NCBI GenBank assembly: GCA_029248755.1
Contig: JAQWIR010000004.1
Span: 1-62,098 of the forward strand
Length of the DNA stretch: 62,098 nt
Direction of reading: 5' to 3'
Source of the DNA: Porticoccaceae bacterium
GTDB taxonomy: Bacteria > Pseudomonadota > Gammaproteobacteria > Pseudomonadales > Porticoccaceae
The translations under genes were made by a program, and so were the position numbers. How positions within the stretch are numbered: position 1 is the stretch's first letter; each line of letters opens with the position of its first letter. The notes under the pieces are model-generated. The model ran no database searches. It was given only the letters and a program-made list of their open reading frames with translations, and was not told the origin of the DNA. Below are positions 33,106 to 39,522 of the stretch, one piece after another.

Positions 33106-34392
33106 ATGAGTTTAGTTATGTCCAAGTTTAAAGCAACACCTCTATTTGATGCCCATAAAAGATACACGCGGTTACCCATGGGTATGGCCATGCTTAATGA
33201 ATATCCAGACTCAAAATTATTTATTGAAGCACTGGTTAAAGATAATCCAGATGTAAGTAAGGACTTTTTACACAGTCAGGCATTCCTAAAAAGTTACAGT
33301 CGCAAAAGTGAAGCCACCTATCGTAGCTATAGAAACGAAGTTGAGCGCCTTTTGTTATGGTCCTGGACAGTTGCTTACAAAAGTATCATCCAACTTAAAC
33401 GTCCAGAATTAGAAGCATTTTTTGATTTTATTCATAGTCCACCGACTGAATGGGTCGGTGAATCGGTGCAGGACCGATTCAAGCCAATCGGCGGAGAGTG
33501 GCTTCAAAATGAATTTTGGCGGCCATTTGCCGCAAAAATAAGCAAGGAAGACCGCAAAAAAGCCACAGCAGGGGGTTTGGATGTAAAACCCGATACAAAG
33601 GGTCATACACTCTCAGGTGAGGCTATAAAGATCTGTTTTTCAGCTATTTCTTGTTTTTATGACTATTTGGCCGATGAGGGTTATGCGTTTGGCAACCCTA
33701 TTCCTGCAATCCGCAAGCAATCACCCTACCTTATTAAAGGCGCTACCCAAAAGAATATAAAACGGTTATCTAACCTTCAGTGGGATTATGTTTTAAGCTG
33801 CGCTGAAGCTAAGGCAAATGCCGATACTAATTATGAACGAATGTTATTTGTTGTTGCCTTAATTAAAACATTGTATCTGCGAGTATCAGAATTATCAGAC
33901 AGGTCCAATTGGCAACCTATTTGGCAGCATTTTTGGCAAGATTCCGATGGCAATCACTGGCTAAAGGTTTTGGGGAAAGGCAATAAAATACGTGATATTT
34001 CAGTGCCAAGTGCCCTATTTCCCTACATTAAACGTTATCAGGCATTTAGAACGGAACAAAATAGTAATTTTAATAGTAATGCGCCATTGGTGATTAAAAA
34101 CCGTGGTACTGGGGGTATGAGTTCTCGACAATTAAGGCGTATTGTTCAAGAAGCCTTTGATATGGCTTATGAAAAAATGCTTTCTGAGGGCTTTTCTGAC
34201 GAGGCTAAAGCTTTAAGAGAAGCCACAACCCACTGGCTTAGACATACAGGTGCTTCTCAGGATATAGCTACACGACCCCTTAAACATATGGCCGACGATC
34301 TTGGGCATGCGAGTATGGGCACCACCGATCAGGTTTATATTCAATCGGATATGAAAGAACGGGCCAAAACCGGTAAAGATCGGGATGTTTAG
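33106..34392 (+). CDS. Tyrosine-type site-specific recombinase (integrase)
   Basis: Phage-integrase family. The N-terminal SAM-like core-binding region (residues ~55-110) is followed, after an unusual ~65-residue insert, by the catalytic domain with Arg259 (LRVSEL), Lys291 (LGKGNK), His376/Arg379 (HWLRHTG), His401 (LGHASM) and nucleophile Tyr411. All catalytic residues are present. Start ATG 33106 or 33118; neither has a clear ribosome site. It is not beside a tRNA and no excisionase or phage gene is seen, so it may be a chromosomal recombinase or remnant of an element that brought in the porin–DUF4956–VTC block. Confidence 0.88.
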   Translation: MSLVMSKFKATPLFDAHKRYTRLPMGMAMLNEYPDSKLFIEALVKDNPDVSKDFLHSQAFLKSYSRKSEATYRSYRNEVERLLLWSWTVAYKSIIQLKRPELEAFFDFIHSPPTEWVGESVQDRFKPIGGEWLQNEFWRPFAAKISKEDRKKATAGGLDVKPDTKGHTLSGEAIKICFSAISCFYDYLADEGYAFGNPIPAIRKQSPYLIKGATQKNIKRLSNLQWDYVLSCAEAKANADTNYERMLFVVALIKTLYLRVSELSDRSNWQPIWQHFWQDSDGNHWLKVLGKGNKIRDISVPSALFPYIKRYQAFRTEQNSNFNSNAPLVIKNRGTGGMSSRQLRRIVQEAFDMAYEKMLSEGFSDEAKALREATTHWLRHTGASQDIATRPLKHMADDLGHASMGTTDQVYIQSDMKERAKTGKDRDV

Positions 34393-34448
34393 TTTGTATG
34401 CCCTTTAAATCTAATGCCTGTGAATTTCATTCACTTTGAGATATGAGA

Positions 34449-35636
34449 CTAAAGTCTTATTTGAACTCGAAGTGTAAGGGCTTTACCTGAACTATGCTGG
34501 CTGTCTTCTAGGATACCTTTGGCATTAGTTTTACTAGTGTTAAGCATTAACTTCATGCGTTTATTAAGGTAATAATTAAGCCCTAAAACTGTGGTTGTTA
34601 TATCTATACTATTATTTTTATTCAAAGCACCAATGCGAACTGTTTGTAAAGTGCCCTTTCTCAGGTTTAGTTCCCATGCACCCATAGATGAGGTGGGCTT
34701 AACATTTGCAAACCGGCCTTTTTTATAAGGTCGGTGATCATCGGTCAAAAAATAGGATAGCTGGGTGTAATAGCCTTGGTACTCAGCACTTTGGTCAGTA
34801 TCTAAGGCATTGATTTTTAGGTGTTGGAATTCACCTTGTAGAGATAAGGCTCCCCTGCCCCATGCAGCTTCAACGCCTTTTTTAACTATGGTATTAGTTG
34901 CAATATTACGAGTATCTAAGAAATTAATAGCGCTATCTACACCGCCATTAGTTTTAATTTCATATTCAGCACCCTGGAGGTCTCTGGTTGAATAGGCCAT
35001 CCCGAAGTGATTGTAATTTTTTTTGTCATTAACTGGGCTGAGGGTATACCTTGCAGTATAGGCTTTATCGCCATCCGCTTTAACTTTGCCGCTTTTTTCA
35101 ACATTATATACTCCGACACTCCAGCTATACTTTTTATTAGAGTCAGACAGATTGATTCCTTTACTGCGACCCAAAGAAAAAGTTGAAAGAGCTCTCTCGG
35201 TAAATAATGTATTTGCTGAGCTTGTGATGTTTTCTAGACCAAAGGGCTCTTTTGATTGGCCGATCCTGATCTCAGCAAAATCAAAGCCTCTGTAACGTAA
35301 ATATAAATCTTTGGTTTCGTAGGTATCATCACTTTCATTGATTGCAACTTGAAGCTTGCTTGACCAATTTTCACCCAGTGGTAGTTTAAATGTTAATCTT
35401 GCTCTTCTTAGTTGAGAGTCATAATTATAATTATCCAGTTGATCTTCTCGGTACATACCAGCAAAGCGGGTTGAATCAAGATTAATCCTTATGCCTACAT
35501 CTAAATCTCGGATAAGATCATTGTTTAAATATTCAGCTTTCAAGCTTGAATTGTCTATTTCAACTGCAAATGATGATGAGGTAAATACGCTGAAACAAAG
35601 CCAGGTTAGAACTGTAAGAAAGCTAATTTTAAACAC
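34449..35636 (-). CDS. OprP/OprO-like outer-membrane porin
   Basis: Signal peptide of ~24 residues ending SSSFA, then a 16-strand-type beta barrel with the phosphate-selective porin O/P pattern (RRARLTFKLPLGENW, EIRIGQSKEPFG, LTERALSTFSLGRSKG). 395 aa. GTG start at 35636 after AAAAGG. Last gene of a three-gene minus-strand operon with the VTC-type protein and DUF4956 protein. OprP and OprO pass phosphate and pyrophosphate, which fits a polyphosphate context; the selectivity of this one is inference. Confidence 0.82.
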   Translation of the reverse strand: MFKISFLTVLTWLCFSVFTSSSFAVEIDNSSLKAEYLNNDLIRDLDVGIRINLDSTRFAGMYREDQLDNYNYDSQLRRARLTFKLPLGENWSSKLQVAINESDDTYETKDLYLRYRGFDFAEIRIGQSKEPFGLENITSSANTLFTERALSTFSLGRSKGINLSDSNKKYSWSVGVYNVEKSGKVKADGDKAYTARYTLSPVNDKKNYNHFGMAYSTRDLQGAEYEIKTNGGVDSAINFLDTRNIATNTIVKKGVEAAWGRGALSLQGEFQHLKINALDTDQSAEYQGYYTQLSYFLTDDHRPYKKGRFANVKPTSSMGAWELNLRKGTLQTVRIGALNKNNSIDITTTVLGLNYYLNKRMKLMLNTSKTNAKGILEDSQHSSGKALTLRVQIRL

Positions 35637-35663
35637 TTTTTTTACCTTTTTATGATCTACATT

Positions 35664-36275
35664 CTAATTTTCTGTTGAATCATTAATGTTACTAGCAGGC
35701 TCACTATATGATACCTTGATGCTGGCAACATCGCTTAGAAAATCAATATTGTTTATTTGGATATCTTTTACATCTAACCCGGTACGCTCTTCGATGTCAG
35801 CAACAAGTAAGTGGTGATTTTCAGGCCGAATATTATGAATATTTTCGTAACGAATCGTCTTTTCAAAAACTCTTGGCGCAAATAATCCAGTCTCACCAAC
35901 GGCGACCATGACACACAATATAGCATTAACAAATGCAGCACTTAGGAAACTTAAGGGACCTACACCATTGAGAAGGGAGATAACAATAACAAGAAAAAGA
36001 TAGGTCATATTACGAATAGATATGGATTCTGTTCGATAGCGCAACATTGCAAATATAGCGAATAATCCAAAAGCAAAACCCATGGAAATTTCAACGCCTT
36101 GCAAAAGATGCGTAAGTAAAAATACACCTGTACCGAACATAAAGAAACCAAAAACAGAGTTTCTATCGGGCGTATAACGATAGAAAATACCACGCAATAA
36201 TACCCCTAGAAAAATGGTATTTATTAAAAGTAGTGGAAAAAATTGACCCACAAAAAGCCCGAAAATATCATTCAT
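35664..36275 (-). CDS. DUF4956 multi-pass membrane protein
   Basis: 203 aa with about four or five membrane helices (~10-28, 42-59, 62-78, 90-104, 108-128) and a soluble C-terminal tail of ~70 residues. A cytoplasmic-looking basic loop LRYRTESISIRN (residues 78-89) lies between helices and is a hallmark of the family. DUF4956 proteins are often coded beside VTC-domain polyphosphate polymerases. GGGAGC within the end of the upstream gene serves as ribosome site, so translation is coupled. Function not established; a channel or anchor for the polymerase is plausible. Confidence 0.82.
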   Translation of the reverse strand: MNDIFGLFVGQFFPLLLINTIFLGVLLRGIFYRYTPDRNSVFGFFMFGTGVFLLTHLLQGVEISMGFAFGLFAIFAMLRYRTESISIRNMTYLFLVIVISLLNGVGPLSFLSAAFVNAILCVMVAVGETGLFAPRVFEKTIRYENIHNIRPENHHLLVADIEERTGLDVKDIQINNIDFLSDVASIKVSYSEPASNINDSTEN

Positions 36276-36279
36276 TAAA

Positions 36280-37089
36280 TTATGCTCCCATCTTGAGTTT
36301 CATCAGATTCGCTTTAAAACGATTTGACTTGATATGTTTGTTATTAGTTAGTGATTGCCCCATGCAGTATTTACTAAAACCTTTGGGTCTTATTCCCATA
36401 TCGCGCATGAGTCGATAAAAAGGCGATTGTCGGTCTAATTTTTCCTGCTTAAGCTCGGCAATATAAAAATTAGAAAGGTTAAAGTTATCATCAGATTTTG
36501 CATGTTTAAGCCTGCTAGAAAAATTAATATTTAAATCTAAGGTTAATCGTTCTTTACGGGCATCACTTGCAAGACTGATTCTACGGTAAGAACAGGCTTG
36601 AGAAAGAATAAGTTGGTCAGGGTTGGGAATACCATAATCTTGTAAAAAAGAATAATTATCAGCCAAGGCAATCTTTGGGTCACTATCGACAAGACATCGA
36701 TTTTTAATAGTGCGACCTTTATTATTCTTAAATTTAACCTCTAAAAAACTATTGCCTACATCAGCGTAGTGTCTATGACGAACCTTGTGACGATTAAGTT
36801 TACGGTTATGGTGATTGTTATAAAAATGAAGCTTATTGGTGTCAAAATAAATATTGTCATATTGGAAAATACTTACACCATCAATATTAAGTATCGAATA
36901 AAACGGTTTACAGGCTTTTAAGACACCAAGAAGCGAGCCTAAAGGTAGCAAAAACTTGCTATCTACACGATTCATTAGTGAAGAGTTAGCCAGCCCAGAA
37001 AGATCATGATGAGCAAATCTCTCAACTACATGATGCAGTTGATCGTTTATATCAGGTAATAAGGCTGTTTTATCCAAATCGTACAACAT
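36280..37089 (-). CDS. VTC-domain polyphosphate polymerase-like protein
   Basis: 269-aa soluble protein of the VTC (vacuolar transporter chaperone) domain family, a tunnel-type triphosphate-tunnel relative that makes polyphosphate from ATP in yeast. Basic and acidic tunnel residues are recognisable: Arg41 and Lys45 (MNRVDSKFLLP), YFDTNKLHFY (81-90), Arg104/Arg106 (HKVRHRHY), Glu117, Lys119 and Lys121 (LEVKFK), Lys124/Arg126, Arg131, Arg181 and Glu212/Lys214 (AELKQEK), Lys240. No membrane helix and no SPX domain. First gene of the operon with DUF4956 and the porin. Activity in this organism is inference. Confidence 0.85.
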   Translation of the reverse strand: MLYDLDKTALLPDINDQLHHVVERFAHHDLSGLANSSLMNRVDSKFLLPLGSLLGVLKACKPFYSILNIDGVSIFQYDNIYFDTNKLHFYNNHHNRKLNRHKVRHRHYADVGNSFLEVKFKNNKGRTIKNRCLVDSDPKIALADNYSFLQDYGIPNPDQLILSQACSYRRISLASDARKERLTLDLNINFSSRLKHAKSDDNFNLSNFYIAELKQEKLDRQSPFYRLMRDMGIRPKGFSKYCMGQSLTNNKHIKSNRFKANLMKLKMGA

Positions 37090-37512
37090 CTATAAATCCT
37101 AGCGGCACTCTTAAACACTTATCAATTATTAAAATATATCAAACCATAAAGTAGCTGCTGAATAGTTCGTATGCGTCAAATGAACTATATATTTAAAGCT
37201 ATAGAGGTAATAAAAGAGTGTTTTATTAATTATTACAGCAGTAAAACTGAGAGTCATCTGCAAGAAAAGAATAAACTCAAGTGGTAATGCTTTGTTAGTA
37301 TTTTATCTAATCACTATACATTAGCGATAATTACTTATGATTGCAATGCTTAATGCATATATAGCCTTGCTTATAGAGGAATATTACTGCTTGGAAAAAA
37401 CAACATTTACCCTATTATTGAATAATAACTCAAATTATATTGAGTAATTATTCGGAATTTAGTTTATATTTAAGTATGAGGTTTAAGGGTTAATATGAAT
37501 AAGGGGTAAATT
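37090..37512. other. Divergent regulatory region between VTC operon and tetR
   Basis: 423 AT-rich bases holding the start regions of the VTC–DUF4956–porin operon (left) and the TetR gene (right). The clearest element is a 34-bp palindrome at 37420-37453. No Pho-box (CTGTCAT-type repeats) is recognised by eye. Confidence 0.5.
37420..37453. promoter_or_regulatory. 34-bp palindrome, probable TetR operator
   Basis: GAATAATAACTCAA (37420-37433) and TTGAGTAATTATTC (37440-37453) are inverted repeats of 14 bp with one mismatch around a 6-bp spacer ATTATA. The right arm contains TTGAGT, a possible -35, with TATATT 19 bases later. Size and place are typical for an operator that its own TetR protein binds. 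Confidence 0.6.
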
Positions 37513-38133
37513 ATGCCAAAGAAGTTAAGTTCTAGATCTGAACCGATTCAAGGTAGAGCAAGGTTACAGCGTGATAAAATATTAAAGGAAACCTGTTATC
37601 TATTGCAAACAGTGGGGTTGAGCGAACTAACGACAATTCTTGTGGCTAAAAAAATGCGTATATCCGTGGGTACGCTCTACCATTATTTTCCAAACAAACA
37701 TGCAATATTATATGCTCTGTCAGAACTGTGGTTAGAAAATATAATGCAGGTTATGGATGCTATTAACGCTGAAGATATTGAGAAAATGCAGTTAAAGCCC
37801 TTTGTCAGCCTTACCGTAGATAGTCTCTTGCAAGCTTATAAAGAAAATTCTTATTTATTACCCATTGTCCCTGTAATGGCTATTATACCTGAGCTTAAGT
37901 CGATCTATGACAGCTACTTAAACTGCGTCCATAGTGGCTTTATACGGGCTTTTAATAGAACATCCATAGGAATAAGTGACGATGCCGCCTTACATCTGCC
38001 AGTTTTTATCCATCAGATTAGCCATACGATACTATTTAATCTCAGCGGGGATACTTCTTCTGATGCAAGATCAATAGCAGATTTAAAGTATTTATTGTTA
38101 ACGTTACTAGAGCGAGAACGGCTAAAGTTCTAA
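37513..38133 (+). CDS. TetR-family transcriptional regulator next to the VTC operon
   Basis: 206 aa. The DNA-binding domain is clear: LTTILVAKKMRISVGTLYHY then FPNKHAILYAL (residues ~35-70). The C-terminal ligand domain is not assigned to a subgroup. AAGGGG precedes ATG 37513. It is divergent from the VTC–DUF4956–porin operon with a palindrome between, so it probably controls itself and perhaps the operon. Ligand unknown. Confidence 0.88.
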   Translation: MPKKLSSRSEPIQGRARLQRDKILKETCYLLQTVGLSELTTILVAKKMRISVGTLYHYFPNKHAILYALSELWLENIMQVMDAINAEDIEKMQLKPFVSLTVDSLLQAYKENSYLLPIVPVMAIIPELKSIYDSYLNCVHSGFIRAFNRTSIGISDDAALHLPVFIHQISHTILFNLSGDTSSDARSIADLKYLLLTLLERERLKF

Positions 38134-38175: not shown

Positions 38176-39522
38176 CTATTTTAGCGTTACAAATTCTTCT
38201 GCAGTCGACGGATGGATACCAATCGTTGAATCAAAATGTGATTTTGTAGCGCCTGCTTTTATGGCGATGGCGACTCCCTGAATAATTTCTGCGGCATGGT
38301 GGCCCACCATATGACAGCCAATAACCTTGTCATTGGTTTTATTAACGATCATTTTCATAAACGTACGATCACTACCCTGCCCTAATGTTTCAAACATGGG
38401 CTTAAAGTCTGAACGATAAACAGCAATATCGGTATATTGTTGCTTAGCTTGGGCTTCTGTTAAGCCTACCGTGGCTAATTCAGGTTGGCTAAACACTGCG
38501 GTTGGTATATTTGTGTAATCTAGCTTGGCTGTATCATCTGCGTATAAGTGATTAATCAATACCATGGCCTGTTTGATGGCTACCGGTGTAAGCTGAACCC
38601 GGTCTATAACATCACCAATAGCATAGATACTGGGCTCATTGGTACAGTAGTTTTCATCAACCACAATTGCGTTACGATCATTTAATGTAACTTTGGTATT
38701 CTCAAGCCCTAACCCTTCGGTATTGGCCTGCCTACCTGTGGCATAAAGCACCATATCTGCAGTAATTGAGCTCCCACTATCTAAGTTGATATTAAGCTGT
38801 TGGTGACACTTGGCAATTGAACTGACATTGGTATCTAGAGTCATTTTGATACCCTTTTTAATCATGCCTTCTGTTACTTTTGCGCAACAATCGCTATCAA
38901 ATGATTTTAATAACTGATTCCCACGGTATATTAGGTGTGTCTCAACCCCTAGCCCATTAAGAATCCCTGCGAATTCAACTGCTATATAGCCCCCACCTAC
39001 AATAACAGCCCTTTTAGGGAGCTCTGCTAGGCTAAACATTTCATTAGAACTAACCGCCAGTTCTTTACCGGGTATATCGGGTATACGGGGCCAGCCGCCG
39101 GTTGCAATTAATATTTTTTTTGCGCTGTATTGCTGTCCGTTAACAGAAATACGCTGAGGAGCTTCTATTTTAGCTCTGCCTTGAATAATGGTCGCACCGC
39201 TATCCTTCAATAGTCTTTGATAAATGGCGTTTAAACGGCCTATTTCGTTGGATTTATTGTCTCTGAGGGTATTCCAATTAAACGTTGCCTGATTTGAATG
39301 ATTCCAACCATAACCTTCGCCAGCATGAAACAATTCAGGAAACTGAGAAGCATAGACAAATAATTTTTTTGGCACACAGCCAACATTGACACAGGTGCCG
39401 CCAAGATCAGAAACCTCAGCGATGGCAACTCGCTTACCCTGAGAAGCAGCAACTCTGGCGGTTCTAACCCCGCCGGAACCCGCACCTATAACAAATAGAT
39501 CAAAGTCAAAATTGTTACTCAT
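38176..39522 (-). CDS. gor: Glutathione-disulfide reductase
   Basis: NADPH-dependent flavoenzyme that keeps glutathione reduced. FAD-binding VIGAGSGGVRTARVAA, redox pair Cys44–Cys49 in GGTCVNVGCVPKKL, NAD(P) motif VGGGYIAVEFAGIL, and the C-terminal GIHPSTAEEF with the active His-Glu pair. 448 aa. Overlaps cysG by 4 bases (ATGA), so it is the last gene of the serS–cysG–gor string. Confidence 0.95.
   Translation of the reverse strand: MSNNFDFDLFVIGAGSGGVRTARVAASQGKRVAIAEVSDLGGTCVNVGCVPKKLFVYASQFPELFHAGEGYGWNHSNQATFNWNTLRDNKSNEIGRLNAIYQRLLKDSGATIIQGRAKIEAPQRISVNGQQYSAKKILIATGGWPRIPDIPGKELAVSSNEMFSLAELPKRAVIVGGGYIAVEFAGILNGLGVETHLIYRGNQLLKSFDSDCCAKVTEGMIKKGIKMTLDTNVSSIAKCHQQLNINLDSGSSITADMVLYATGRQANTEGLGLENTKVTLNDRNAIVVDENYCTNEPSIYAIGDVIDRVQLTPVAIKQAMVLINHLYADDTAKLDYTNIPTAVFSQPELATVGLTEAQAKQQYTDIAVYRSDFKPMFETLGQGSDRTFMKMIVNKTNDKVIGCHMVGHHAAEIIQGVAIAIKAGATKSHFDSTIGIHPSTAEEFVTLK

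Follow-up and report, generated by a model that had tools for sequence, protein, structure and literature searches.

The window analysed here, a 62,098-nucleotide stretch of a Porticoccaceae bacterium genome (contig JAQWIR010000004.1), carries on its minus strand a cassette of three genes encoding a VTC-domain protein, a DUF4956 membrane protein and a Porin_O_P outer-membrane porin. We tentatively propose, at a probability of about 0.4, that these genes form the core of a system in the cell envelope that exports a phosphate polymer, with CotH kinases as its envelope-side users; we infer the synthesis, the translocation, the direction of flow through the porin and the use by CotH. The VTC protein would make polyphosphate from ATP in the cytosol, as its family, fold and residues suggest. 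The DUF4956 protein, whose near-obligatory pairing with VTC and predicted topology suggest this role, would sit in the inner membrane, take the chain at a conserved basic cytosolic face and pass it outwards, and an outer-membrane barrel (the OprP/OprO-type porin here, a DUF2490 protein in several Bacteroidota) would give the anion a way to the surface. Exported CotH kinases, which adjoin the cassette in more than half of the related loci and are encoded elsewhere in the window genome, would be the likeliest users. We favour export because it explains why the genes co-occur, why an exported kinase and a phosphate-type porin are present and why storage enzymes are lacking.

Gene content of the cassette and its CotH partner

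The VTC gene (36280–37089, minus strand, 269 amino acids) is followed after 4 bases by the DUF4956 gene (35664–36275, minus, 203 amino acids) and after a further gap of 27 bases by the porin gene (34449–35636, minus, 395 amino acids), which has a GTG start and, by eye, encodes a signal-peptide-like N-terminus. A sequence-only reading of this DNA had described three tightly spaced genes on one strand, with correct coordinates and strand. In a domain scan of the five window proteins encoded at 33106–38133, all three cassette products scored above their Pfam cut-offs: VTC against PF09359 (E 4.9e-20, 72.5 bits, cut-off 23), DUF4956 against PF16316 (E 1.7e-47, 161.8 bits, cut-off 30.6) and the porin against PF07396 (E 8e-47, 160.7 bits, cut-off 20.9). 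With E values up to 1 allowed, the three proteins gave these matches and nothing else, and neither an SPX domain nor a Vtc1-type membrane domain (PF02656) was found in them. The same gene order was present in four loci from metagenome-assembled genomes of Porticoccaceae/UBA7375 and other Pseudomonadales (L081–L084).

The co-occurrence of the cassette genes was observed directly. VTC and DUF4956 were found in the identical 9 of 56 relatives (Fisher p 1.3e-10), and a Porin_O_P gene adjoined DUF4956 in eight of these nine. In a class sample of 370 genomes, 11 held VTC, 13 held DUF4956 and 10 held both (Fisher 2.7e-16); one of the 11 (G388) had a marginal VTC match (1.1e-4) that looked CYTH-type by eye, and on its exclusion DUF4956 accompanied VTC in 10/10 genomes and CotH did so in 9/10. 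We consider the VTC-DUF4956 pairing near-obligatory.

Related loci were collected by scanning contigs with an alignment of window-type DUF4956 proteins, and the best 80 of 423 confirmed stretches were compared; chosen by DUF4956 similarity, this set is biased to the window's own type and includes near copies. By title, 13 of the loci are from Bacteroidota, and the remainder are mostly from Gammaproteobacteria (Marinobacter, Hahella, Halieaceae, Oceanospirillaceae and others). Neighbours were counted on the same strand within 4 kb, with overlapping reading frames retained. VTC was present in 73 loci, the porin in 59 and CotH in 45. All four genes occurred together in 41 loci, VTC-DUF4956-porin in 15, VTC-DUF4956 in 13, CotH-VTC-DUF4956 in 4, DUF4956-porin in 3 and DUF4956 alone in 4. 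The pairing and the porin, whose co-occurrence the sequence-only reading had put forward for a neighbourhood survey, recurred: VTC-DUF4956 beyond chance in the two genome samples, the porin in 59/80 loci. That reading had stopped at the three genes, which are real; it had missed the exported kinase. The order CotH-VTC-DUF4956-porin was kept in 40 of the 41 four-gene loci, one of which carries a second CotH gene; in the remaining locus CotH came last. The presence of CotH beside the cassette in so many loci indicates a four-part system.

CotH has been described as a kinase (PMC7112168, in the part available), and for CotH from a four-gene operon (L097) a match at 1.1e-11 was obtained with the solved structure of spore coat protein H (5jd9). 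Among the 45 strong CotH proteins of the 80 loci, 44 carried a loose lipobox pattern (37 a strict one) and one a signal-peptide-like start. All nine VTC-holding relatives encode CotH: three (G037, G052, G055) next to VTC, the six genus members at another site. Within the class sample, a CotH match was found in 9/11 VTC holders (one of them, G324, counted although it lies below the CotH cut-off) compared to 17/359 genomes lacking VTC. The two CotH matches of the window genome lie on other contigs, away from the cassette. One, of 1111 amino acids, combines LTD, CHB_HEX_C_1, Fn3_assoc and CotH domains behind a lipobox recognised by eye; the other, of 1772 amino acids (L074 9099–14417, contig C38), has CBM6, GH16 glycan hydrolase, Ig-like and CotH domains and, by eye, a signal-peptide-like start. 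A short frame near a window-genome CotH gene (L073 7078–7512) shows a dockerin-like calcium-binding pattern by eye. In a tree of 69 CotH rows (66 different) out of 71 found, which gave long-branch warnings, the 1111-residue protein fell into a 99/99 group of seven genus rows and an operon-linked CotH from Psychrosphaera (L109). This grouping suggests that the window-genome protein may derive from an operon-linked form.

Residues and structure of the three proteins

The equivalents of Vtc4 R196, K200, R264, R266, K281, K294, R361, K428 and E426 were identical in 67/67 aligned VTC proteins. The R373 equivalent was R in 66 rows and K in one, and that of the catalytic K458 was K in 66 rows with a gap in one; the window protein has every tunnel equivalent together with the metal-binding E426 and the catalytic K458. 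The top structural matches of the protein were Vtc4, Vtc2 and Vtc3. These results agree with the sequence-only reading, which had called the basic tunnel intact and had named yeast VTC4 as the structure for comparison. We conclude that this is probably a polyphosphate polymerase of the Vtc4 type with the triphosphate tunnel fold. It shares its proposed product with PPK1 and PPK2; these belong to another family and had no match in the window genome, which is 88.7% complete.

In the structure model of the DUF4956 protein (pLDDT 82.5, 64 sequences), five long helices at the N-terminus precede an alpha/beta C-terminal domain made up of strands and one helix. The motif LRYRTE (residues 78–83) was invariant or almost so across the 64 sequences, and the earlier description of a multi-pass membrane protein with a conserved basic loop therefore stands. 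Helices 1 and 3 are each followed by a loop with three basic residues, and helices 2 and 4 by loops with none. By the positive-inside rule, basic loops lie on the cytosolic side, and the LRYRTE loop and the tail are accordingly predicted to face the cytosol. In a Foldseek search the model matched nothing at E 0.001 or better, an absence that does not show a new fold, and its VIA-align matches were middling and mostly over the C-terminal domain. A by-eye motif resemblance to MgtC was dropped, although not disproved (hhalign probability 0.4% over 20 columns, with only three of six MgtC loci represented in the alignment). An apparent VTC-DUF4956 fusion, suggested by a long DUF4956 frame in L092, was ruled out, as VTC sits there in a separate overlapping frame.

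The solved chains nearest to the porin were OprP (2o4v, 2.1e-20) and OprO (4rjw, 2.4e-16), in line with its first assignment to the phosphate/pyrophosphate porin family. The window porin is basic at OprP positions 34, 59, 60, 62, 114 and 133, and keeps the equivalents of R34, R59, R60 and R133. It differs from both Pseudomonas porins in two respects. At the positions where OprP and OprO differ from each other in their alignments (Y62/F62 and Y114/D114) it has R and K, and its alignment showed no counterpart of OprP R226 or R242. At OprP position 313 the residue pairing differed between two alignments, and we assign nothing to that site. A table in PMC12653301, a source available in part, indicates that double mutations can invert phosphate/diphosphate transport specificity.

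Of the 13 Bacteroidota loci, 8 encode a DUF2490 protein after DUF4956. Weak barrel-family matches of several such proteins suggest that they are outer-membrane barrels. The B. thetaiotaomicron DUF4956 and DUF2490 genes (BT3498-99) appear together in an iron-dependent set/stimulon table in the accessible part of PMC10434189, a listing that may hold a regulatory clue.

Evidence against export and competing explanations

Several of our results weigh against the export proposal. DUF4956 occurs without VTC in 3/370 class genomes (one below cut-off) and in three Arenicella-type loci (L094, L095, L102); these three are the true absences among the seven loci lacking VTC, since the other four (L101, L105, L150, L154) have fewer than 200 bases upstream before the contig ends. 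In L094, 552 bases upstream of DUF4956 gave no VTC match. On a Pseudoalteromonas plasmid (CuT4-3) carrying DUF4956-porin, no more than a fragment of VTC was recognised. The kinase link is weak within the genus, where CotH was present in 6/6 VTC holders and in 15/29 other genomes (p 0.03); CotH lacked VTC in 15/24 CotH holders among the relatives and in 17/26 in the class, and one class genome (G192) has VTC and DUF4956 and no CotH match. As a general rule, then, CotH is not tied to the presence of VTC. The DUF4956 profile matched no VTC chain and no clear solved relative in the Protein Data Bank (PDB), so a channel role for DUF4956 stays putative. In the porin, residues basic at OprP positions 62 and 114 were present in 47/56 and 51/56 cassette porins, and in 5/9 and 6/9 of the distinct control porins obtained by scanning 20 loci; basic constriction residues are therefore a trait of the family, with perhaps some enrichment in the cassette, and we rejected them as a sign of cassette porin specificity. 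Upstream of 75 operons, that of the window included, a 14-position scan gave no above-chance Pho box. On average, 68% of the shuffled sequences scored as high as the observed best, with 2/75 operons at 2% or less, and on this control the Pho box was rejected as evidence.

The VTC protein itself adds two further points of this kind. Two Vtc4 entries scored no higher than YgiF in the structural comparison (5iiq 15.9, 3g3t 15.2), and all 67 bacterial VTC rows have an acidic D or E (D43 in the window) at the position of Vtc4 T198. The second point favours a tripolyphosphatase or other triphosphate-handling enzyme whose small product would be exported by DUF4956; the other tunnel enzymes sharing this fold act as hydrolases or cyclases. 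According to the part of PMC4641920 available, from which our mapping of AtTTM3 was partly taken, Vtc4p lacks Glu-4 of the AtTTM3 acidic patch. In the window protein only D43 of that patch is acidic; the remaining positions appear basic by alignment reading (R41, K129 or R131, K214). Together with the K458 equivalent in 66/67 rows (one gap) and VTC subunits as the closest structures, this makes such an enzyme quite improbable in our judgement.

These features also limit the comparison with the yeast VTC complex, in which Vtc4 acts with Vtc1 and Vtc3. The tunnel fold, the active-site residues of the catalytic subunit and the combination of a soluble domain with a membrane protein are alike. However, the cassette has no SPX or PF02656 match, its membrane partner is DUF4956, and an acidic residue replaces T198. 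The claim of a split bacterial VTC complex was overstated, as the DUF4956 profile also found no VTC chain among solved structures.

Another explanation is phosphate acquisition and storage, in which the porin would import phosphate or pyrophosphate, VTC would store it as cytosolic polyphosphate and DUF4956 would be a mere membrane anchor or regulator. The porin is homologous to OprP and OprO, which are phosphate and diphosphate uptake porins. Alphaproteobacteria also have phytase-like genes near VTC-DUF4956, in the order DUF4956-VTC-phytase-like on Shinella and Aminobacter plasmids and with a phosphate transporter before the phytase-like gene in Nitratireductor. The enzyme inventory of the genus speaks otherwise. 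PPK1 was found in 0/35 genus genomes, compared to 19/21 genomes from other families; PPK2 was found in 4/35 (one a short fragment) and in 0/6 VTC holders; and the PPX model had no match in 34/35, with one weak match (6.1e-4). With neither PPK1 nor PPK2 recognised in the six VTC-holding genomes, VTC is the sole candidate polymerase found there; PPX was not recognised either, leaving no known enzyme to draw on a store, and this inventory argues against storage. Since this explanation also lacks a Pho box signal and leaves the exported CotH of the operons unexplained, we regard it as unlikely.

A third possibility is phosphorylation of surface polysaccharides or exoproteins, with CotH using ATP or another donor and VTC-DUF4956 accessory to matrix assembly. 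In the part of PMC7112168 available, a CotH-polyphosphate polymerase-DUF4956-DUF4832 group lies beside Gram-positive pel clusters. A second, exopolysaccharide-like subtype among our loci (L057, L058, L062, L066, L067, L068, L070), whose genes were mostly read from order and sequence starts only, consists of a CotH of ~850–980 amino acids whose N-terminus by eye holds a hydrophobic segment, a DUF4956 of ~230 amino acids and VTC. It resembles the Pel-linked group as far as that source describes it, and in L058 it adjoins genes that by eye resemble polysaccharide O-acetylation genes. The GH16, CBM6 and LTD domains of the window-genome CotH proteins point the same way. A matrix role leaves the Vtc4-type active site and the phosphate-type porin unexplained, and many CotH genes occur without VTC; we think it improbable as the main function.

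Flanking genes, related contexts and meaning

Downstream of the cassette and convergent with it lies a XerC-like tyrosine recombinase gene (33106–34392, plus strand; PF00589 8.4e-7), which matched the XerC model TIGR02224 at 2.2e-16, yet below the cut-off of that model. It looks like a resident chromosomal gene, not a mobile-element integrase. A recombinase match was present in 32/35 genus genomes (some partial) compared to VTC in 6/35, and its presence thus does not identify the cassette as an integrating element; being widespread and independent of the cassette, it led us to reject a mobile element on this ground. The VTC and DUF4956 proteins had no match among 50,697 phage records. Upstream and divergent is a TetR-type regulator gene (37513–38133, plus strand; PF00440 1.2e-8), followed by a reductase-like gene at 38176–39522.

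Among 30 recombinase loci, the cassette occupied three (the window, L182 and L183). In five others (L184, L185, L188, L192, L209) the recombinase, TetR and reductase-like genes are adjacent and the cassette is absent; TetR and the reductase were not seen within the 1500 bases examined at the remaining loci. The presence of TetR at cassette-free sites gives no support to its membership of the system. Two of the five cassette-free-site genomes (G010, G005) had no VTC match, and three (G017, G018, G034) have VTC elsewhere. These sites, and a G+C content of 36.2% in the cassette compared to 40.0% in the window, fit a gain of the cassette at the window site, with loss as the alternative.

The gene pair also occurs in other settings. 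Deinococcus taeanensis has CotH-VTC-DUF4956, and in Deinococcus QL22 VTC-DUF4956 adjoins an acid phosphatase and a phosphonate transporter. In three alphaproteobacterial plasmid loci (L169, L170, L171) a phytase-like gene comes after DUF4956-VTC, in one case separated from it by a phosphate transporter, and sigma and anti-sigma factor genes lie near the pair in two of the three. Window-type DUF4956 without VTC was seen in L094, L095 (7612–11271) and L102, the Arenicella type, and also in G181 (L061). In L095 it stands beside an opposite-strand frame of ~1200 amino acids that had no Pfam match, with a calcineurin-like phosphoesterase on the other side.

The sequence-only reading had called this its best candidate for an undescribed system. 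In print, CotH accompanies VTC-type genes in Gram-positive bacteria, in the pel accessory group and in Clostridium perfringens NELoc-2, where CotH kinase family and polyphosphate polymerase (VTC) domain proteins share one locus (PMC7112168 and PMC11677781, each available in part). The pel group likewise joins CotH, a VTC-type polymerase and DUF4956; the system proposed here differs in being Gram-negative, with an outer-membrane porin and a lipoprotein-like CotH. No match for pel, DUF4832 or CotH was found in the five window proteins at 33106–38133. NELoc-2, compared by the available description only, is alike in the joint locus and unlike in being Gram-positive, so that a porin does not apply. 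The VTC-DUF4956-porin cassette itself was not described among the literature matches listed, in a search that left subscription journals and preprints mostly outside; to this extent its novelty holds.

To our knowledge, the source of phosphate for exported bacterial kinases is an open question. Exported polyphosphate might replace ATP as the phosphate donor of surface-anchored CotH kinases acting on exported proteins or glycans, and the porin would take either the polymer or freed phosphate across the outer membrane; we consider this specific version of the export proposal unlikely. For bacterial VTC-domain proteins, which carry the annotation of polyphosphate polymerase, no assay was found in the literature examined. 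As the conserved cassette brings together a likely polymerase in the cytosol, a protein of the inner membrane, a barrel in the outer one and an exported kinase, both the phosphate supply of the kinase and the activity of VTC can be tested in cultivable Marinobacter. If export is correct, DUF4956 would gain a function and marine extracellular polyphosphate a possible genetic origin.

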